Assembly (NCBI RefSeq): GCF_001428025.1
Contig: NZ_LMSC01000007.1
Span: forward strand, 817,801 to 881,800
Source: Phycicoccus sp. Soil748
GTDB lineage: Bacteria; Actinomycetota; Actinomycetes; Actinomycetales; Dermatophilaceae
DNA: 64,000 nt
Direction: 5' to 3'
Each line of letters begins with the position of its first letter. Position 1 is the stretch's first letter. Shown here one piece after another: positions 26,801 through 35,868 of the stretch. Below the pieces are notes generated by a model. The model was not told where the DNA came from and ran no database searches. It saw only the letters and a list, made by a program, of their open reading frames with translations. Made by a program: the position numbers and the translations under genes.

Positions 26801-27967
26801 GTGCACGTCGTCATCGCCCCGGACTGCTTCACCGGCACCCTCACCGCCCAGCAGGCCGCGCAGGCCATGGCCGACGGCTGGGCCCAGACCGCACCGCAGG
26901 ACCTGCTGACCCTGCTGCCCCTGTCGGACGGCGGCCCGGGCTTCCTCGACGTGCTGGGCTCGGCGCTCCCGGAGGCGCAGACCCTGGCCGTCACCGTCGC
27001 CGACCCCCTGGGTCGGGAGGTGCCCGCCGCCGTGCTCGTGGTCGAGGACGGCGCGCGACGCACCGCGTACGTCGAGTCCGCCCAGTCCGCCGGGCTCCAC
27101 CTGCTCGACGCGGGCGAGCGCAACCCCGCCCTGACCAGCACGTGGGGAGTGGGCCAGCTGCTCGAGGCGGCGCTGTCCATGGGGGCCACGCGCATCGTCG
27201 TGGGGCTGGGCGGCAGCGCCACCAACGACGGGGGAGCAGGGCTGCTCGCGGCGCTCGGCGTCGGCCGCCCCGAGGACCTGGCCCGGGGCGGACTCCAGCT
27301 CGGCGACCTGCGCGACGACGCACTGTCCGGTCTGGACTCGGTGCGGGAGCGGTTCGCCGGCGTGGAGCTGGTGCTGGCCAGCGACGTCGAGTCGCCGCTG
27401 CTCGGCCTGCAGGGCGCCTCGGCGGTGTTCGCGCCGCAGAAGGGGGCCTCGCCCGAGCTCGCGCAGGCCCTCGAGGGCGCGCTGGGCAGGTACGTCGAGG
27501 TGGTGCGCCGCAGCCTTCCCGAGACGACCGACCTGCTCACGGGCAAGCCGGTGCGCCTGGACAAGCAGCCGGGCGCCGGCGCGGCGGGCGGGCTCGGCTA
27601 CGCGCTCTACCTGCTGGGCGGCCGTCGCGTGAGCGGGGTGGGGGAGGTGCTGTCCGCGGTCGGGTTCCGCGACCTGCTGGCGGCCGCCGACCTGGTCGTC
27701 ACCGGCGAGGGCAGCTTCGACTGGCAGAGCCTGCAGGGCAAGGTCGTGGCGGGCGTCGCCGCGGTGGCCCTCGAGACCGCGACGCCGAGCATCGTCATCG
27801 CCGGCCAGACCCTCGTGGGCCGCCGTGAGGCGATGACCCTGGGGCTGTCGGGCACCTATGCCGTGGCCACGTCACGCGAGCAGGTCGAGGCGGCCATGGC
27901 CGACCCGGTCGGCACGCTGGCGGCGCGCACCGCCCGCGTCGCGGCCACCTGGTCCCCCCAGCGGTAG
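26801..27967 (+). CDS. glycerate kinase (GarK/GlxK family)
   Basis: 388 residues from the GTG at 26801, preceded by GAAGGA. Glycerate 2-kinase of the GarK family phosphorylates glycerate to enter glycolysis. Family motifs: APDCFTGTLTAQQA at the N-terminus, LPLSDGGPGFLDVL, VGLGGSATNDGGAGLL near 129-143, and KQPGAGAAGGLGYAL near 258. Length is normal. The M. tuberculosis orthologue is next to erpA, as here (103 bases upstream of erpA, same strand). Confidence 0.9.
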   Translation: MHVVIAPDCFTGTLTAQQAAQAMADGWAQTAPQDLLTLLPLSDGGPGFLDVLGSALPEAQTLAVTVADPLGREVPAAVLVVEDGARRTAYVESAQSAGLHLLDAGERNPALTSTWGVGQLLEAALSMGATRIVVGLGGSATNDGGAGLLAALGVGRPEDLARGGLQLGDLRDDALSGLDSVRERFAGVELVLASDVESPLLGLQGASAVFAPQKGASPELAQALEGALGRYVEVVRRSLPETTDLLTGKPVRLDKQPGAGAAGGLGYALYLLGGRRVSGVGEVLSAVGFRDLLAAADLVVTGEGSFDWQSLQGKVVAGVAAVALETATPSIVIAGQTLVGRREAMTLGLSGTYAVATSREQVEAAMADPVGTLAARTARVAATWSPQR

Positions 27968-27991
27968 GCACGACGTACAGTGGTGTGCGCG

Positions 27992-28005
27992 GGGGAACAT
28001 TCCCC
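27992..28005. promoter_or_regulatory. inverted repeat upstream of erpA
   Basis: GGGGAA (27992-27997) and TTCCCC (28000-28005) are perfect arms with a 2-base CA spacer, centred about 73 bases upstream of the erpA ATG and 31 bases after the glycerate kinase stop. This size and position suit an operator for a dimeric regulator overlapping a promoter, but no matching -35/-10 is obvious. Chance occurrence is possible. Confidence 0.4.
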
Positions 28006-28070
28006 GCACCCCGTGGGTTGGCACCGATGGTCAGCCGACCCCCGACCACCGACATGAAGGACGCATCACG

Positions 28071-28460
28071 ATGAGTGTTCAGGACCAGACCGCTCCGGCC
28101 AGCACCACGGCTCCGGCCGAGGCCGCCGAGACGACCCACGGCGTCCTCCTCTCCGACGTCGCCGCCGCCAAGGTCAAGTCCCTGCTCGAGCAGGAGGGTC
28201 GCGACGACCTCCGGCTGCGTGTGGGTGTGCAGCCCGGTGGCTGCTCCGGCTTGATCTACCAGCTCTACTTCGACGAGCGCACCCTCGACGGTGACCTCGT
28301 CCGTGACTTCGACGGTGTCGAGGTCGTCGTCGACCGCATGAGCGCCCCCTACCTCGAGGGCGCCAGCATCGACTTCGCCGACACCATCGAGAAGCAGGGC
28401 TTCACGATCGACAACCCCAACGCCGGCAGCTCCTGCGCCTGCGGCGACTCGTTCAGCTGA
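28071..28460 (+). CDS. erpA: iron-sulfur cluster insertion protein ErpA (HesB/IscA family)
   Basis: 129 residues from the ATG at 28071 with GAAGGA nine bases upstream. A-type carrier that hands Fe-S clusters to targets. The three conserved cysteines are C58 (GGCSG), C122 and C124 (SCACG). The N-terminal ~22 residues are an Ala/Thr-rich extension. Upstream is the inverted repeat at 27992-28005, and a strong terminator follows at 28485-28516. Candidate clients in this window are LipA, NadA and the Rieske protein QcrA; that link is inference. Confidence 0.94.
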   Translation: MSVQDQTAPASTTAPAEAAETTHGVLLSDVAAAKVKSLLEQEGRDDLRLRVGVQPGGCSGLIYQLYFDERTLDGDLVRDFDGVEVVVDRMSAPYLEGASIDFADTIEKQGFTIDNPNAGSSCACGDSFS

Positions 28461-28484
28461 GCCACCGCGGCGCCTGCCGCACCT

Positions 28485-28516
28485 CGAAGGGCCCCACTGC
28501 GCGGTGGGGCCCTTCG
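28485..28516. terminator. 13-bp hairpin terminator after erpA
   Basis: Arms 28485-28497 and 28504-28516 are perfect complements (core GGGCCCCAC) with a 6-base loop. It lies 24 bases after the erpA stop and 57 before the stop of the convergent flavodoxin-fold gene, so it can serve both. Confidence 0.87.
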
Positions 28517-28572
28517 TCGTGTCCGCCGTACGGCGCGCGCCCAGCCGGCCTCGCCGGGGCGGCCACGCCCGG

Positions 28573-29313
28573 TCAGCGGTACTCGGGGTTGGGGTGCTCG
28601 GGGTTGGGGTGCTCGGGGAAGTCGAAGCGCGCCCCGGCGTCCCACTCGGTGCGCTGGTTGCCGCCGACGGGGAACCCGCCCGCCGCCTTGAACATGGCGG
28701 CGAGGTGCATGAGGTTCCACGTCATGAAGGTGGTGTTGCGCTGGGTGAACTCGTTCTCCGGGCCTCCGCTGCCGGGGTCGAGGTACGAAGGCCCGGGACC
28801 CGCCTCGCCGATCCACCCCGCGTCGGCGCCCGGCGGGATGCTGAACCCGATGTGCTGCAGGCTGTAGAGGATGTTGGACGCACAGTGCTTGATGCCGTCC
28901 TCGTTGCCGGTGATGACCGCGCCACCGACCTTGCCGTAGTAGACGTACTGCCCCGCGGCGTTGGTCATCGAGGAGCCGGCGTACAACCGCTCGATCACCT
29001 TCTTGGTCACCGAGGAGTTGTCGCCGAGCCAGATGGGGCCGGCGAGGACGAGGATGTCGGCGTCGAGGATCCGGGCGAACAGCAGGGGCCACTCGTCGCG
29101 GTCCCACCCGTGCTCGGTCATGTCGAGGTAGACGCCGGTGGCGATGTCGTGGTCGATCGCCCGGACGACCTCCACCTCGACACCGTGGCTGGTCATGATC
29201 GCCGCACTGTTGTCGATGATGCCCTGGGTGTTGCTCTGCTCGGGAGAGCGCTTGAGCGTGCAGTTGACGAACATGGCGCGCAGTCCGGAGAAGTCGTGCT
29301 CGAGGTCGGTCAT
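28573..29313 (-). CDS. flavodoxin-fold NAD(P)H-dependent reductase-like protein
   Basis: 246 residues from the ATG at 29313 (GGAGG upstream). The N-terminal strand RAMFVNCTLKRSPEQSNT is a flavodoxin-like phosphate-binding loop for FMN. Other features are ILVLAGPIWLGDNSS and GGAVITGNEDG, as in NADPH-dependent FMN reductases. The C-terminus ends in a repeat PEHPN-PEHPN-PEYR, coded by a 15-bp direct repeat. Electron acceptor unknown; roles in quinone or iron-related reduction are typical for the fold. Confidence 0.85.
   Translation of the reverse strand: MTDLEHDFSGLRAMFVNCTLKRSPEQSNTQGIIDNSAAIMTSHGVEVEVVRAIDHDIATGVYLDMTEHGWDRDEWPLLFARILDADILVLAGPIWLGDNSSVTKKVIERLYAGSSMTNAAGQYVYYGKVGGAVITGNEDGIKHCASNILYSLQHIGFSIPPGADAGWIGEAGPGPSYLDPGSGGPENEFTQRNTTFMTWNLMHLAAMFKAAGGFPVGGNQRTEWDAGARFDFPEHPNPEHPNPEYR
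28581..28618. repeat. 15-bp direct repeat at the 3' end of the flavodoxin-fold gene
   Basis: Two near-exact 15-bp units (28581-28595 and 28596-28610) and an 8-base partial third (28611-28618) encode the terminal Pro/His/Glu-rich repeat. Being in frame it changes only tail length. Confidence 0.8.
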
Positions 29314-29381
29314 GGCCAAATGTTCCTCCCGCCGCCGCACCTCGGCAACGCCCACCGCGCCGACCGGGTAGGTTGCCGGAC

Positions 29382-30368
29382 GTGCAGATAGCCATCACCG
29401 GGTCCATCGCCACCGACCACCTCATGACCTTCAAGGGCAGGTTCCGCGACTCGCTGGTCGTCGAGCAGCTCGACAAGGTGTCGCTGTCGTTCCTCGCTGA
29501 CGACCTCGAGGTCCGCAGGGGAGGCGTGGCCGCCAACATCGCGTTCGGCATGGCCAACCTCGGGCAGCGCCCGATCCTGGTCGGCGCGGTCGGTGAGGAC
29601 TTCGCCGACTACCGCAGCTGGCTGGAGCGCAACGGCGTCGACTGCACCTCGGTCCACGTCTCGGACTCCAAGCACACCGCCCGCTTCGTCTGCACCACCG
29701 ACGAGGACATGGCCCAGATCGCGACCTTCTACGCCGGCGCCATGAGCGAGGCCCGCGCCATCGAGCTCGGGCCCATCGCCGACCGGGTGGGCGGCCTGGA
29801 CCTCGTGGTCATCGGGGCCAACGACCCCGAGGCGATGCTCCGCCACACCCGCGAGTGCCGTTCGCGGGGCATCCCGTTCGCGGCCGACCCGAGCCAGCAG
29901 CTCGCGTTCGCCGACGGCGAGACCATCCGCCAGCTCATCGACGGCGCCGACTACCTGCTGACCAACGAGTACGAGGCGGCGCTGACCTCCCAGAAGACGG
30001 GGTGGAGCGCGGAGGAGATCGCCGACCGCGTCACCACCCGCGTCACGACCAAGGGCAAGGACGGCGTGGTCATCGAGCGCCGGGGCGAGGAGCCGGTCGA
30101 GGTGCACGTCGCCCGCGAGGTCCGTCGCGCCGACCCGACGGGTGTGGGCGACGCCTTCCGCGCCGGCTTCCTCACCGGCCTCGCTGCCGACCTCGGGCTG
30201 CGGCACGCGGCCGAGCTCGGGTCGATGCTGGCCACCTACGTGATCGAGACGGTGGGCACGCAGGAGTACACCCTCGGCAAGGCGAGCTTCCTGCAGCGCC
30301 TCGCCGACGCCTACGGCCAGTCCTCCGCCGACGCCATCGAGCCCCACATCGCCTGCGTGGCGCCCTGA
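29382..30368 (+). CDS. PfkB-family sugar kinase, adenosine kinase-like
   Basis: 328 residues from the GTG at 29382 (homologues begin MQIA, so the TTG at 29373 is not used). PfkB fold: GSIATDHLM, the RRGGVAANIAFGMANLG segment near 50 for substrate, and the DPTGVGDAFRAGFLTGL signature (catalytic Asp) near 252. It resembles actinobacterial AdoK (Rv2202c, next to ctaC and erpA in M. tuberculosis, from memory), which phosphorylates adenosine to AMP. Substrate is therefore inferred by orthology. The aat gene follows by three bases. Confidence 0.88.
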   Translation: MQIAITGSIATDHLMTFKGRFRDSLVVEQLDKVSLSFLADDLEVRRGGVAANIAFGMANLGQRPILVGAVGEDFADYRSWLERNGVDCTSVHVSDSKHTARFVCTTDEDMAQIATFYAGAMSEARAIELGPIADRVGGLDLVVIGANDPEAMLRHTRECRSRGIPFAADPSQQLAFADGETIRQLIDGADYLLTNEYEAALTSQKTGWSAEEIADRVTTRVTTKGKDGVVIERRGEEPVEVHVAREVRRADPTGVGDAFRAGFLTGLAADLGLRHAAELGSMLATYVIETVGTQEYTLGKASFLQRLADAYGQSSADAIEPHIACVAP

Positions 30369-30371
30369 CCC

Positions 30372-31052
30372 GTGAGGGACCCCATCGAACCGCTCCCGAC
30401 GTCGTGGGAGTTCGACCTGACGGAGGTCGAGGCCGGGGAGGACCTGGTCGCGGTCGGGGGTGACCTGCGCGCCGGCACGTTGCTCGAGGCCTACCGCAGC
30501 GGGGTCTTCCCCATGGGTCTCGGCGAGCACGGCGCCCGGCCGCTGGGCTGGTGGTCGCCGGACCCCCGCGGTGTCCTGCTGCCCGGGGCGGCTCACGCGA
30601 GCCGCTCGCTGCGCCGGTCCCTGCGTCACTTCGAGATGCGGGTCGACACCGCCTTCGACGAGGTGCTCGCCGCGTGCGCCGACCCCACCCGCGACGGTCG
30701 CTGGATCACGCCTGAGATCGTCGACGCCTACACCGAGCTGCACGCCCTGGGCTGGGCCCACAGCATCGAGACCTGGCGCGACGGCGAGCTCGTGGGAGGG
30801 CTCTACGGCCTCGCGGTCGGTGGCCTGTTCGCGGGGGAGTCGATGTTCCACCGGGAGACCGATGCGTCCAAGGCCGCGGTGCTGGCCATGGCGGGCTTCG
30901 TCTTCGCCGACGGCGACCCGCGCCGGATCATCGACGTGCAGTGGGCCACCGACCACCTGCGCACCCTCGGCATCGTCTCGATACCCCGCGAGGACTACCT
31001 CGAGCGGCTCGACGCCGCCCTGGACCTCGCGCCGCCCACCTTCACGGCCTGA
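30372..31052 (+). CDS. aat: leucyl/phenylalanyl-tRNA-protein transferase
   Basis: 226 residues, GTG start three bases after the kinase stop, so co-transcribed. It adds Leu or Phe from charged tRNA to N-terminal Arg or Lys, an N-end-rule mark for ClpS/ClpAP degradation. Motifs: DLVAVGGDL, LLEAYRSGVFPMG, WWSPDPRGVLLP, and the catalytic-domain GELVGGLYGLAVGGLFAGESMF. Neither ClpS nor ClpA is in the window. Confidence 0.94.
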   Translation: MRDPIEPLPTSWEFDLTEVEAGEDLVAVGGDLRAGTLLEAYRSGVFPMGLGEHGARPLGWWSPDPRGVLLPGAAHASRSLRRSLRHFEMRVDTAFDEVLAACADPTRDGRWITPEIVDAYTELHALGWAHSIETWRDGELVGGLYGLAVGGLFAGESMFHRETDASKAAVLAMAGFVFADGDPRRIIDVQWATDHLRTLGIVSIPREDYLERLDAALDLAPPTFTA

Positions 31053-31092
31053 GGGCGGGGCGGTCCGGAGCGGTCAGCGCCGCCCGGAGCGG

Positions 31093-31380
31093 TCAGGGCG
31101 GCGCGGTCACCCTGACGCGGTACGCCGCGTAGCTGTTTCCGTCGTCGGCCGTGACCGACCGCGCGCCGAGGTAGTCCTGTCCGCGCATGCGGCACCACGC
31201 AGGGACGTCCGCGGCGGCCGCCGCGTCCGTGGCCCACACCTCCACGACGGTGCCGGGGGAGGCGTCGCGGGCGTGCTGGGCGAGGCGGATGACCGGTACG
31301 GGGCAGGCTAGCCCTCGGGCGTCCACGACCTCGACGTCGCGCTCGTGCGCTGCCGCCGTGCCCGGACCGGTGCCGCTCAC
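31093..31380 (-). CDS. TusA-family sulfur carrier/sulfurtransferase-like protein
   Basis: 95 residues from the GTG at 31380. A small one-domain TusA-like protein with the persulfide cysteine C26 in ARGLACPVPVIRLA (the CPxP motif). The N-terminal 15 residues are an extension. Its start overlaps the stop of the upstream desulfurase-like gene by three bases (GTGA), so the two are translationally coupled, and in several actinobacteria the same pair is fused. TusA proteins relay sulfur to tRNA thiolation or molybdenum cofactor; which sink it uses here is unknown. Confidence 0.85.
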   Translation of the reverse strand: MSGTGPGTAAAHERDVEVVDARGLACPVPVIRLAQHARDASPGTVVEVWATDAAAAADVPAWCRMRGQDYLGARSVTADDGNSYAAYRVRVTAPP

Positions 31381-32672
31381 AGGTGCTCGGCCCCCAGCTC
31401 GGCGCGGACAGCGGCCACCGCGGGCGCCACCTGCGCGGCGAAGGCGCGGACGTCCTCGGCTCGGTGCGGCGCCACGGAGGCGAGCGGCAGGGTCACGCGG
31501 ACGTTGCCGTGCGTCAGGGCGCCCATGGCGGCCAGCACGTGGCTCGGCTCCAGCGTGCTGGAGGTGCACGCGGACCCCGAGGCGACCGCGAAGCCGCGCC
31601 GGTCCAGCTCGCGCACCAGCGCCTCCCCGTCGGCGTACAGCGCGGAGAAGGTCACGACGTGGGGGAGGCGGTCCTGCGGGTCGCCCACCACCTCGACGTC
31701 CGGCACCGCGGCCGCGGCCTCGCGGACGAGGTCGACCAGGGCGCGTGCCTGCGCCGCGTCGGCCTCCCGGTCGGATGCCGTCTGCTGCCACGCCTCGGCG
31801 GCGGCGAGGGCGAGCGGCACCCACGGGTGGTGGCGTGAGGGGCCGTTGAGCCCGGCGTCGGGGTCGACCGGTCCGGGGCGCAGCCACCGGGTGCGCGACG
31901 GCACCACGAGCACGCCCACACCGCCGGGGCCGCCCCAGGACAGGGCGTCACCGGCGAGGACGTCGTAGTCGACGGGCGGTGCCACGCGGCCGAGGGACGA
32001 CTGGGCGTCGACGGCCAGCGGCACGCCGGCGGCGCGACAGGCCTCGAGCGCCGCCCCGAGGGGCTGGATCGTGCCGACCTCACCGTTGGCGTGCTGCAGG
32101 AAGGCGGCGACGGTCCCGGGCAGCGAGACGGCAGTGGGCCAGGCCTTGAGGTCGACCCGGCCGAGGTGGTCCACGGCCACCTCTTCGACGAGGTCGGCGT
32201 CGCCGGCGAGGGCCGCCGCGTGGCGCGCCGGGACCAGCACCGCGGAGTGCTCGACCGCCGAGGCGACCACGCGAGCCCCCCGGCGGCGGGCGGCGTGCGT
32301 GAGGCCCTGCGCCATCCAGCGCACGGCGGTGGGCCCGTCCGGGGCGAAGGCGACCTCCTCGGCCCGCACGCCCAGGCCCTCGGCGAGGACGGCCCTCGCG
32401 TCGTCGAGCAGCCGGCGGGCCGTGCGTCCCTCCCGGTGGAGCCGGCGCGGGTCGGCCCAGCCGGCGTCGACCGCGGCGGCGAGCGTCTCCCGGGCCACCG
32501 GGTGCATCGGGCCGGGGGAGGCGTCGAGCAGGACGCGACGACCGCCCTCACCGGCTCGTGCACGACCGCCGTCGCCGGCACCCCTTCGGGCGCCGTCGGC
32601 ACGGCCTGCCGAGGCGCTGCCGGGGGCACCCTCGGAGGCGTCGCCGGGGCCGTCGGGGAGGGGGTTCGCCAC
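31377..32672 (-). CDS. degenerate cysteine desulfurase (NifS/IscS-like class V aminotransferase) lacking the PLP lysine
   Basis: 431 residues. The fold matches cysteine desulfurases: ASPGPMHP near 51, EHSAVL at 141-146 (H142, the PLP-ring-stacking His), HANGEVG at 194-200 (N196), VDAQSSLGR at 221-229 (D222 present). The active cysteine loop SGSACTSSTLEPSHV has C369. But in the PLP segment GDALSWGGPGGVG (241-253) the usual His-Lys pair is replaced by L244-S245, and the Gln three residues after D222 is S225. Without the Schiff-base lysine it should not do normal desulfuration. An N-terminal Gly/Ala/Arg-rich extension (~45 residues) is unusual. Coupled by GTGA to the TusA-like gene. A scaffold or sulfur-transfer role is possible. 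Confidence 0.87.
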   Translation of the reverse strand: MANPLPDGPGDASEGAPGSASAGRADGARRGAGDGGRARAGEGGRRVLLDASPGPMHPVARETLAAAVDAGWADPRRLHREGRTARRLLDDARAVLAEGLGVRAEEVAFAPDGPTAVRWMAQGLTHAARRRGARVVASAVEHSAVLVPARHAAALAGDADLVEEVAVDHLGRVDLKAWPTAVSLPGTVAAFLQHANGEVGTIQPLGAALEACRAAGVPLAVDAQSSLGRVAPPVDYDVLAGDALSWGGPGGVGVLVVPSRTRWLRPGPVDPDAGLNGPSRHHPWVPLALAAAEAWQQTASDREADAAQARALVDLVREAAAAVPDVEVVGDPQDRLPHVVTFSALYADGEALVRELDRRGFAVASGSACTSSTLEPSHVLAAMGALTHGNVRVTLPLASVAPHRAEDVRAFAAQVAPAVAAVRAELGAEHL

Positions 32673-32768
32673 ACCCCGACGTTAGCCGCACCCTGCCCGG
32701 ACGAGCCGCATGGGCTGGAGTAGGGTTTGCGCTTGATGGCCCATCACTGTTTCGAAGAAGGTGCACCG

Positions 32769-33665
32769 TTGCGTCAGCACGACGTCTCTGCGCCGCGCCC
32801 TCACCGGCGGCGGTCCGTTAGCAGGAGATCCACCACGGCCCTCGGCCTGGCGGTCGTCGCCCTCGCCCTGTCCGGCTGTGCCGGCCGGGTCCAGGACGGC
32901 TTCCTCCCGCGTGCCGCCAGCGAGAACGGCGAGCACGTCACCCGGCTGTGGAACGGCGCCTGGATCGCCGCCCTCGCCGTGGGTGTGCTCGTCTGGGGCC
33001 TCATCCTGTGGTGCGTCGTGGCCTACCGCCGCAAGAAGGACGACACCACCCTCCCGGTGCAGCTGCGCTACAACGTGCCGATGGAGATCCTCTACACGGT
33101 CGTCCCGGTCTTCATGATCGCGGTGCTCTTCTACTACACCGCCCGTGACGAGGCCACGCTGCTCGACACCTCCAAGCACCCCGACGTCGTGGTCAACGTC
33201 GTCGGCAAGAAGTGGAGCTGGGACTTCAACTACGTCAACGAGCAGACCTACGAGACCGGCACCCAGGCCGAGCTCACGGGCCAGCCCGGTGCCGAGAAGA
33301 ACCTCCCCACGCTCTACCTGCCGGTCAACAAGCGCACCGAGTTCGTGCTCACCGCGCGCGACGTCATCCACTCCTTCTGGGTGCCGGCGTTCCTGCAGAA
33401 GCTGGACATGATCCCGGGCCGGGTCAACCGGTTCCAGGTCGTCCCGACCGAGATCGGCGAGTTCAAGGGCAAGTGCGCCGAGCTGTGCGGCGCATACCAC
33501 TCGCAGATGCTCTTCAACGTCAAGGTCGTGTCGCAGGCCGACTACGAGGCGCACATCTCCCAGCTGAAGGCCGCAGGCAACGACGGCCAGCTGGACAACA
33601 GCCTCAGCACCAAGAAGGTCATGCCCAACCAGCAGGACATCCTCAAGGACTCAGGGACCAAGTGA
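32769..33665 (+). CDS. ctaC: cytochrome c oxidase subunit II (aa3-type)
   Basis: 298 residues if translation starts at the TTG at 32769, which has GAAGAAGG at seven bases; an ATG at 32736 gives a longer product with a poorer site. The N-terminus is a lipoprotein signal with lipobox ALSGC (C37). Two transmembrane helices (about 63-85 and 106-127) anchor a periplasmic-side CuA domain, whose copper ligands are in [12 protein letters not shown], with another His in RDVIHSFW. CuA accepts electrons from the bc1 diheme cytochrome. Stop overlaps the ctaD start by one base (TGATG). First gene of ctaC-ctaD-ctaF. Confidence 0.95.
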
Positions 33666-35464
33666 TGGCAGCCGCAACCGAGTCGACCTCGACCTACTTC
33701 CGCTCGACGGAGGCGACCGCGACCCGCCGGCTCACCAAGGGCCAGACGGTCGTGAAGTGGATCACGACGACCGACCACAAGGTCATCGGCAACCTCTACT
33801 TCATCACCTCCTTCATCTTCTTCATGTTCGGCGGTGTGCTCGCGCTGCTGATCCGCGCCGAGCTGTTCCAGCCGGGCCTGCAGATCGTGGACAACCCCGA
33901 GCAGTACAACCAGCTGTTCACCATGCACGGCACGATCATGCTGCTGCTGTTCGCGACGCCCCTGTTCGCCGGCTTCGCCAACGCCCTCATGCCGATCCAG
34001 ATCGGCGCGCCCGACGTGGCGTTCCCGCGGCTCAACATGTTCGCCTACTGGCTCTACCTCTTCGGTGGCCTCATCGCCTCGGCCGGCTTCCTGACCCCGA
34101 GCGGTGCCGCGTCCTTCGGCTGGTTCGCCTACGCGCCGCTGTCCGACGCGTCCAACAGCCCCGGCCTCGGTGGCGACCTGTGGGTCTTCGGCCTCGCGCT
34201 CGGTGGTTTCGGCACGATCCTCGGCGCCGTCAACTTCATCACCACGATCATCTGCATGCGCGCGCCCGGCATGACGATGTTCCGGATGCCGATCTTCACC
34301 TGGACCATCCTCATCACCTCCCTGCTGGTGCTGATGGCCTTCCCGGTGCTCGCCTCCGCGCTCCTGGCGCTCGGCGCGGACCGCAAGTTCGGTGCCCACG
34401 TGTTCGACCCCAGCAACGGTGGGCCCATGCTGTGGCAACACCTGTTCTGGTTCTTCGGGCACCCAGAGGTCTACATCATCGCCCTGCCGTTCTTCGGCAT
34501 CATCTCCGAGATCCTGCCGGTGTTCTCGCGCAAGCCGATCTTCGGCTACAAGACCCTGGTCTTCGCCACCATCGGCATCGCGGCCCTGTCGGTCACCGTC
34601 TGGGCGCACCACATGTACGCCACCGGTCAGGTGCTCCTGCCCTTCTTCTCGGTCATGACGATGTTGATCGCCGTGCCCACCGGTGTGAAGTTCTTCAACT
34701 GGATCGGCACGATGTGGGGCGGCAAGCTCTCGTTCGAGACGCCGATGCTCTGGGCGATCGGCTTCCTCGTGACGTTCCTGTTCGGCGGCCTGACGGGCAT
34801 CATCCTGTCCAGCCCCGCCCTGGACTTCCACCTCTCCGACAGCTACTTCGTCGTCGCCCACTTCCACTACGTCGTGTTCGGCACCGTGGTGTTCGCGATG
34901 TTCGCCGGGTTCTACTTCTGGTGGCCGAAGTTCACCGGGCGCATGCTCGACGAGACGCTCGGCAAGATCCACTTCTGGATGCTGTTCATCGGCTTCCACA
35001 CCACGTTCCTCATCCAGCACGTGCTGGGTGTCGACGGCATGCCGCGCCGCTACGCCGACTACCTGCCCGAGGACGGCTTCACCTGGGAGAACCAGGTGTC
35101 GACCTACGGCTCGTTCCTGCTGGCCGCCTCGACGCTGCCCTTCCTCTACAACGTGTGGAAGACGTGGCGCACGGCCCCGCTCGTGGAGACCGGCGACCCG
35201 TGGGGCTACGGCGCCTCGCTGGAGTGGGCGACCTCCTGCCCGCCGCCGCGGCACAACTTCGACACCATCCCGCGCATCCGCTCGGAGCGTCCGGCGTTCG
35301 ACCTGCACCACCCGGAGGCAGCTCCCGGGGGTGGGCTCCAGGCCGACCCCGACACGCTGACGCGGATCATCGGCCCCGCCGAGGTGTCCGAGGACGAGCA
35401 CGGCCACCGCACCGGTGAGTACGACCAGGACCTGCACCCCCGGTTCCACGAGGAGCGCGACTGA
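33665..35464 (+). CDS. ctaD: cytochrome c oxidase subunit I (aa3-type)
   Basis: 599 residues. Twelve-helix core of the terminal oxidase. Heme/copper ligands visible: low-spin heme His in FTMHGTIML, the CuB site [10 protein letters not shown] with the His and crosslinking Tyr, the His pair in VWAHHMY, and HFHYV for heme a3 and heme a. Proton-channel residues of the D channel are expected in the N-terminal half and were not individually mapped. The acidic tail (about 550-599) is typical of actinobacteria. Start ATG overlaps the ctaC stop. In M. tuberculosis ctaD is elsewhere; here it is inside the operon. Confidence 0.97.
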
Positions 35465-35466
35465 CC

Positions 35467-35868
35467 ATGAAGATCGAGTACAAGCTCTTCGTCATCCTCG
35501 CTGCCTTCTTCGCGCCGGTGGGCCTGGCCTACGGCATCTTCACCCACTGGAAGGAGCCCGTCGGCCCCGCCGGCCTGTTCCTCTCCTCCGGGCTCGGGAT
35601 CATGGTGGCCTTCTACCTGTGGGCCACCGCCCGCCGGCTCCCCGAGCGCCCCGAGGACAACCCCAGTGGTGAGATCGCCGAGCAGGAGGGCGAGTACGGC
35701 TTCTTCAGCCCGCACTCCTGGTGGCCGCTGCCCCTGGCCGCCGGTGCCGCGGTGTGCTTCCTCGGTGTCGCCGTCGGGTGGTGGCTGTTCATCATCGGTG
35801 CCGCCTTCGGCGTCGTGGCGCTCGTCGGCTGGACGTTCGAGTACTTCAAGGGCCCGCACGCAGTCTGA
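35467..35868 (+). CDS. ctaF: cytochrome c oxidase subunit IV (actinobacterial)
   Basis: 133 residues starting two bases after the ctaD stop. Four predicted transmembrane segments (about 6-24, 36-51, 82-96, 102-120). This small subunit is specific to the actinobacterial bc1-aa3 supercomplex. A terminator follows at 35881-35920, ending the ctaCDF unit. Confidence 0.92.
   Translation: MKIEYKLFVILAAFFAPVGLAYGIFTHWKEPVGPAGLFLSSGLGIMVAFYLWATARRLPERPEDNPSGEIAEQEGEYGFFSPHSWWPLPLAAGAAVCFLGVAVGWWLFIIGAAFGVVALVGWTFEYFKGPHAV

Follow-up and report, generated by a model that had tools for sequence, protein, structure and literature searches.

Loss of the PLP Lysine Across an Actinobacterial Subfamily of Usually TusA-Coupled Cysteine Desulfurase-Like Proteins

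The described systems that come closest to the gene pair considered here are found in E. coli and in archaea. E. coli IscS, which has Lys206, is active as a PLP enzyme. In the accessible text of PMC9978102, its K206A variant is reported to have zero desulfurase activity, though some PLP stays in the protein, and the activity is absent in H104Q as well. A loop of the SSGSACTS type is described as the signature of class I cysteine desulfurases in the available part of PMC8300815, and the accessible part of PMC2854127 describes TusA as docking against the Cys328 loop of IscS, with its Cys19 ca 4 Å from Cys328. Natural loss of the lysine has been reported in archaea. According to the accessible text of PMC7585200, A. 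fulgidus IscS is inactive because the Lys is replaced by Asp, and it gives a Cys ligand to a [2Fe-2S] cluster; the same text has the lysine also missing in Methanosarcina acetivorans IscS1.

In the present work, we examine a bacterial gene pair in a stretch of 64,000 nucleotides from Phycicoccus sp. Soil748, the whole of which is called the window below. Both genes lie on the minus strand. The first (31377..32672) encodes a Lys-less cysteine desulfurase-like protein of 431 residues (Aminotran_5, NifS/IscS type), assigned from its translation and from Pfam, NCBIfam and PDB matches, with a conserved core (residues 46-431) at 32537-31380. The second (31093..31380) encodes a TusA-family sulfur carrier of 95 residues (PF01206), with the acceptor Cys26 in CPVP. 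The junction between them reads CTGTGAGC, in which the TGA stop of the desulfurase-like gene and the GTG start of tusA share GTGA (31377..31380), and the overlap claimed in the original prediction is thereby borne out.

The aminotransferase class V domain of the first protein is recognized by Pfam above its cut-off (PF00266, E 4.3e-27), while the scores against the NCBIfam models are below theirs: 155.5 bits against an equivalog cut-off of 530.75 for NifS (TIGR03402) and 101.9 against 643.2 for IscS (TIGR02006). A PDB search returned IscS matches, the top two of which are A. fulgidus IscS entries. The class I cysteine loop (SSGSACTS type) is present as ASGSACTSSTLEP, and Cys369 (TGC codon, 31566..31568, minus strand), which corresponds to the mobile-loop Cys328 of IscS, sits within ASGSACTSSTLEPSHV. 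The TusA protein scores 59.3 bits against the 28.6-bit cut-off of PF01206 (E 3e-16), with its acceptor Cys in the CPxP motif, and is the sole PF01206 match in its genome at E ≤ 0.01; for the E. coli-type equivalog NF001423 it falls below the cut-off, at 38.9 against 78 bits.

For comparison, distinct orthologous sequences were sorted by the lysine-site residue itself into 85 Lys-bearing and 122 Lys-less ones. In the window protein, Ser245 (TCC codon, 31938..31940, minus strand) aligns gap-free with the PLP lysine, i.e. IscS Lys206, in the motif GDALSWGGP. The same columns read mostly SAHKWGGP in the Lys-bearing orthologs; where related genomes have ordinary desulfurases, these show xGHKxGG or xAHKxGG there. 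Besides Ser for Lys, there is Leu244 for His and Asp242 (GAC codon, 31947..31949, minus strand) for the phosphate-site Ser, so that the PLP-contact positions corresponding to Thr76, His104, Gln183, Ser203 and His205 of IscS are occupied by Pro114, His142 (kept), Ser225, Asp242 and Leu244. Asp222, the residue that contacts the PLP ring nitrogen (IscS Asp180), is present, and so is Arg392 (CGC codon, 31497..31499, minus strand), the counterpart of Arg354, which in IscS binds the substrate carboxylate. The IscS numbering was taken from the HMMER alignment to the PDB match, with the equivalents of Asn155 and Ser203 counted by hand.

The original prediction had placed H142, N196, D222, S225, L244, S245 and C369 of this protein, and C26 of TusA, correctly. 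Two of its assignments stand in part. N196 is present, but as the pocket asparagine it was rejected: it equals IscS Asn154, and the HMMER alignment puts position 197, a Gly, at pocket Asn155. The retained His142 holds for the window, but across the subfamily it is found in only 43 of the 122 Lys-less orthologs.

A check for a substitute lysine in the pocket found none. The lone Lys of the window protein is at position 176, far from the lysine motif, and 93 of the 122 Lys-less orthologs have no Lys at all in the core. A shifted pocket lysine was rejected as well, as no alignment column holds Lys in more than 4 of the 122. It should be pointed out that the family is Lys-poor, with 25 of the 85 Lys-bearing orthologs having no core Lys besides the catalytic one, and the lack of lysine elsewhere in the protein is therefore no signal by itself. 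The missing PLP lysine in the window protein is a real observation.

That Lys is absent in 122 of 122 sequences follows from the sorting, and the evidence for the spread of the loss comes instead from groups that were chosen by kinship. Orthologs were found in 29 of 58 related genomes (the window's included), all 29 without the lysine. An order-wide search found the ortholog in 102 of 396 genomes, with 103 matches at E ≤ 1e-75, and in each of the 81 matches that were read the lysine is absent (Asp 46, Ser 23, Thr 6, Ala 5, Gly 1). A class-wide search at E ≤ 1e-60 matched 228 of 394 genomes, the weak end of which may include ordinary desulfurases. At the level of the phylum, 59 of 396 genomes were matched at E ≤ 1e-70, and 27 further loci were read, 16 of them from other classes, all with the lysine. 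Three loci (L028, at a contig end and with Asp; L030, an ordinary desulfurase; L212, of 100 bases) and duplicates were left out before counting.

The Lys-less named records belong to Intrasporangiaceae, Cellulomonadaceae, Promicromonosporaceae, Sanguibacteraceae and Jonesiaceae, and Micrococcales contribute 29 Lys-less and zero Lys-bearing sequences among the named records; altogether the gene is retained in seven families of the window's order. The Lys-bearing set comes from Streptomycetaceae, Nocardioidaceae, Kribbellaceae, Micromonosporaceae and others. Three members from outside the order are Lys-less, namely L051 (Nocardioides sp. AX2bis), with His, and L223 and L233, both with Ala. Since the lysine is absent in all 81 order matches read and is kept outside the order at the same locus, bar three losses, its loss is a subfamily trait of the actinobacterial desulfurase-TusA pair. 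The original prediction had raised this idea, and it is confirmed by the orthologs, including the naturally fused L019, L041 and L179. Two members of the Lys-less set, L037 and L083, are unplaced metagenome bins; L083, though titled Proteobacteria, clusters with the order in our tree.

A quick method was used for this tree, which comprises 61 family rows (less than 66% mutual identity, out of 207) together with 9 ordinary desulfurases; the columns of the lysine and of the pocket were excluded. The lysine label needs 4 changes on it, and well-supported branches force at least 3. The rows of the order form two groups whose union is without resolution, and the simplest reading, given the Lys-bearing outgroup and basal rows, is one loss in the order and three elsewhere. 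The motif of L051 is GSSHHWGGP, with His for the lysine inside a Lys-bearing lineage and with Thr114, His142, Ser242 and His244 intact; the loss there is apparently recent and separate. L223 and L233 (genomes G262 and G077) have GAQAFGG and GAEAWGG, with Gly for the phosphate-site Ser, the loop Cys kept and TusA adjacent.

We now consider what else has changed along with the lysine. Its place is taken by Asp in 60 of the 122 Lys-less sequences, by Ser in 40, Ala in 12, Thr in 7 and others in 3. In the Lys-bearing set, Lys, Ser242 and His142 are found in 85 of 85 and Thr114 in 84. Left in the Lys-less set are Thr114 in 50, His142 in 43, Ser242 in 7, His244 in 1 and Gln225 in none, and position 242 has become Asp in 102 of the 122. 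The four residues Cys369, Asn196, Asp222 and Arg392, on the other hand, are kept in 122 of 122, with Cys369 and Arg392 also in 85 of 85 Lys-bearing orthologs, and the SGSAC motif is present in 121 of the Lys-less ones. In 80 loci (32 of the 122 Lys-less) the conservation of the loop is biased, because these came from search patterns that contain it; recounted without them, Cys369 is found in 90 of 90 Lys-less and 42 of 42 Lys-bearing sequences.

A column-wise comparison gives the same picture. Of the 58 columns that are at least 98% fixed in the 85 Lys-bearing sequences, seven drop below 60% in the Lys-less ones: G113, T114, H142, S143, S242, K245 and V252. These comprise 4 of the 5 PLP-contact columns and 3 of the 53 others (Fisher p 4e-4, with phylogeny ignored and K245 among the four by definition). 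Position 196 was used in the PLP list in place of 197, but neither is among the 58 fixed columns, and the Fisher counts therefore stand. The PLP site has thus been taken apart selectively; the loop with its cysteine is retained, and in most cases so is TusA.

One could imagine that the protein remains a working PLP enzyme, either by binding the cofactor non-covalently or by using a different residue in the role of the lysine. The complete retention of Asp222 and Arg392 fits such a scenario, as does the PLP that stays in IscS K206A (accessible text of PMC9978102), and L051, a separate loss, even has His at the lysine site and an otherwise intact set of contact residues. The replacements listed above do not, however, amount to a conserved base, of the 122 sequences only 1 retains the His preceding the lysine, 7 the phosphate-site Ser and 43 His142, and both K206A and H104Q are without desulfurase activity in the same text. 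We consider a working PLP enzyme to be very unlikely. Since Asp222 and Arg392 are kept in all 122 sequences, some ligand may still bind the old pocket.

The Lys-less gene is under purifying selection. The dN/dS values are 0.09-0.30 in 15 hand-picked Lys-less pairs, as compared to 0.07-0.35 in 6 Lys-bearing pairs, and 39 columns are at least 98% fixed across the 122 Lys-less sequences. A decaying gene that has been retained by chance near ctaC would account for the lost catalytic residues, for the 20 of 122 orthologs without an adjacent TusA, and for the locus L211, in which the loop is altered and the TusA has no acceptor Cys. This explanation is rejected by the dN/dS values, by the fixed columns and by the loss of residues being selective, not general; retention of the gene in seven families also speaks against it, and we regard its probability as negligible. 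The earlier argument that the retained cysteine loop speaks against simple decay is supported by the same dN/dS range and by the loop being among the most conserved parts of the protein.

The TusA gene is adjacent or fused in all 85 Lys-bearing orthologs (10 fused) and in 102 of the 122 Lys-less ones (3 fused), and the acceptor Cys is present in 85 of 85 and 101 of 102 of these partners, respectively. A 4-nt GTGA or ATGA overlap is seen in 57 of the 85 and 87 of the 122. Among the 58 relatives, PF01206 (E ≤ 1e-8) has a match in all 29 genomes that carry the desulfurase-like gene and in 5 of the 29 that do not (Fisher p 2e-11), and counted by genus in 18 of 18 and 5 of 29 (p 7e-9), with phylogeny ignored in both tests. 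In two of the 29 the match is less direct: G044 has just one, a TusA domain located elsewhere within a frame of 909 aa, and G047 has one inside a frame of 826 aa plus another at the edge of a contig that truncates the desulfurase gene too.

The tie to TusA in the original prediction finds partial support in these genome counts, and there is evidence against an exclusive TusA relay. No adjacent TusA was found in 20 of the 122 Lys-less orthologs by BLAST and by inspection of the longest frame per reading frame within some 700 bases downstream, and Cys369 is kept in all 20. TusA is thus not the sole reason for keeping the cysteine, and in at least some lineages Cys369 must serve something besides an adjacent TusA. 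Whole-genome searches of these 20 gave a TusA domain in a frame of more than 800 residues in 6 cases and weak TusA-like matches elsewhere in 11; in the remaining 3 (G491, G468 and the 73%-complete G451) they found no TusA. The members without an adjacent TusA are relaxed at residues 372 and 374, just after the cysteine, and at H388, which would be compatible with a lost TusA contact; these three positions were chosen post hoc from a ranked list, and the TusA losses are few and related. The sites known from the IscS-TusA contact are weakly informative: Trp45 corresponds to Arg (R83) and Glu49 to a variable position (87), while the place of Asp52 is mostly Asp (D90; 101 of 122 Lys-less and 72 of 85 Lys-bearing).

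Some further observations on the TusA side can be added. A second TusA cysteine, Cys63 (codon 31192-31194, minus strand), is present in 85 of 85 partners of Lys-bearing proteins, whereas of the 102 partners of Lys-less ones only 38 have it, a difference that counts against the relay favoured below. In L211, a second copy in genome G552, the acceptor Cys of TusA is replaced by Asn and the desulfurase loop reads GCGCTCGRHPSGP; the lone TusA without the acceptor Cys therefore adjoins the lone Lys-less protein without the SGSAC motif. Genomes without an adjacent TusA also contain a separate TusA-like family (L259-L269), with its conserved cysteine in CARLL, often GGDLGCARLL, and not in CPxP. In L252-L255, L257 and L258, from genomes of family f10, the TusA domain lies within open frames of 833-911 residues, which are perhaps, as a guess, a fused reductase.

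The surroundings of the pair bear on another possibility, that Cys369 does not transfer sulfur but ligates a nascent Fe-S cluster shared with a partner of HesB/ErpA type or SufU. In the window, the region 27858-35868 holds HesB, pfkB, aat, ctaC, ctaD and ctaF around the pair, with the HesB/ErpA-type Fe-S carrier gene at 27858..28460 (plus strand, PF01521) and the divergent ctaC, for cytochrome c oxidase subunit II, at 32727..33665 (plus strand, Pfam COX2). Across 75 distinct named loci, of which 43 are Lys-bearing and 32 Lys-less, ctaC is found in 74 and HesB in 67; BLAST also matched TusA in all 43 of the former and in 30 of the 32 latter. As HesB, pfkB and the cta genes are near the pair in most Lys-bearing loci too, the pair lies inside an old actinobacterial block. 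The aat gene was matched in 11 of 32 Lys-less and in only 1 of 43 Lys-bearing loci.

For the cluster scaffold one can cite a HesB gene neighbouring 31 of the 32 named Lys-less loci, Asp as the commonest residue at the lysine site (60 of 122), the cysteine being kept in 20 of 20 cases without adjacent TusA, and the best PDB matches, A. fulgidus IscS, which have Asp (SSNDIYG, 4eb5 and others) or Lys (SSNKIYG, 4r5f) at this place and for which the cluster ligand quoted in the opening was reported (PMC7585200, accessible text). However, HesB also neighbours 36 of 43 Lys-bearing loci, and the link is therefore not specific to the Lys-less proteins. The regular partner is moreover TusA, a sulfur carrier, and not IscU, and the genome's only NifU_N/SufU-type match adjoins SufS. 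On balance, an Fe-S scaffold, although the foremost competitor of the reading favoured below, appears unlikely.

The genome of the window has other means of obtaining sulfur. It encodes a SufS (516 bits) beside SufU and a NifS-like enzyme beside MnmA, so that cysteine desulfuration is provided for by enzymes encoded elsewhere; a scan of the open reading frames around the pair itself saw no further desulfurase. The explanation we favour, although we would put its chances at no better than even, is that the protein is a PLP-free pseudo-desulfurase whose Cys369 would hold sulfur or pass it on, in most cases for TusA, with another desulfurase of the cell as the supplier. An ancestral actinobacterial desulfurase of IscS/NifS type, partnered by TusA, has lost the PLP lysine and most of the cofactor site. 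Judging from the IscS mutants, cysteine cleavage would be lost with it. Selection still acts on the fold, on the mobile loop with the cysteine and, in most cases, on the coupling to TusA. Cys369 would then take up a persulfide from a donor in trans, most likely SufS together with SufU, or else the NifS-like protein encoded next to mnmA, and hand it to Cys26 of TusA, the protein acting as a docking and relay platform. In the lineages without adjacent TusA, it would have to serve another acceptor or hold a cluster.

The presence of Lys-containing desulfurases in the same genome would also suit a mixed dimer, in which the Lys-less protein is an inactive subunit that offers its cysteine loop or a TusA-docking face to an active one. 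Serine palmitoyltransferase, which has a non-catalytic subunit, provides an analogy. In the IscS-TusA complex, as far as the accessible part of PMC2854127 describes it, TusA is bound by one subunit, while its sulfur arrives from the loop of the second. However, the remaining match within the same genome shows only 36% identity to the window protein, which makes a shared dimer interface only putative, and the desulfurases in question are encoded away from the pair. We find an inactive subunit of this kind improbable.

The relay by a PLP-free protein can be given a more specific form, namely a persulfide transferase, in which the old pocket would bind cysteine persulfide or a low-molecular-weight thiol persulfide and the sulfur would pass via Cys369 to TusA. 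In this view, a desulfurase would have become a PLP-free sulfur handler throughout one bacterial order and in at least two further events in its vicinity, the cofactor site being dismantled and the loop cysteine and the substrate-side arginine remaining fixed. We consider this proposal as a whole possible but rather doubtful.

These proteins amount to an extensive natural collection of Lys-less desulfurases; a dedicated TusA gene accompanies most of them, and Lys-bearing sisters occupy the same locus, which makes it possible to test whether the desulfurase cysteine loop can act as a sulfur relay without PLP chemistry. Proteins of this kind that are labelled cysteine desulfurase in annotations are probably not desulfurases, and the cytochrome c oxidase genes and HesB beside the pair in both lineages point to an unexplained sulfur need near respiratory oxidase genes.

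A literature search, with slight reach into subscription journals and with most matches judged by a title-level view, found no description of Lys-less actinobacterial desulfurases. Lys-less IscS is already known from archaea; what appears to be new, in the sense of not having been found described, is an order-wide bacterial version that is usually coupled to TusA and has Lys-bearing sisters at the same locus. Compared to E. coli IscS-TusA (3LVJ), the window pair has the same class I cysteine loop and, in TusA, a CPxP motif with the acceptor Cys, but the desulfurase-like protein does not have the lysine of the active E. coli enzyme. The E. coli tusA gene, we presume, is neither adjacent to nor overlapping with the IscS gene. 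The best PDB match, A. fulgidus IscS (4eb5, 4eb7, 4hvk), is like the window protein of IscS type, with the PLP lysine naturally lost and the loop Cys kept. It differs in being archaeal, in having IscU as partner and in its proposed role as a cluster ligand (PMC7585200, accessible text), while the window protein is bacterial, usually partnered by TusA, and part of an order-wide loss. Closest of all in locus and partner are the Lys-bearing actinobacterial desulfurase-TusA pairs beside ctaC in Streptomyces, Kitasatospora, Nocardioides, Kribbella and Catellatospora, often with a GTGA overlap or a fusion and with 46-56% identity to the window protein. As these keep Lys, Ser242 and His142, they are probably active desulfurases.
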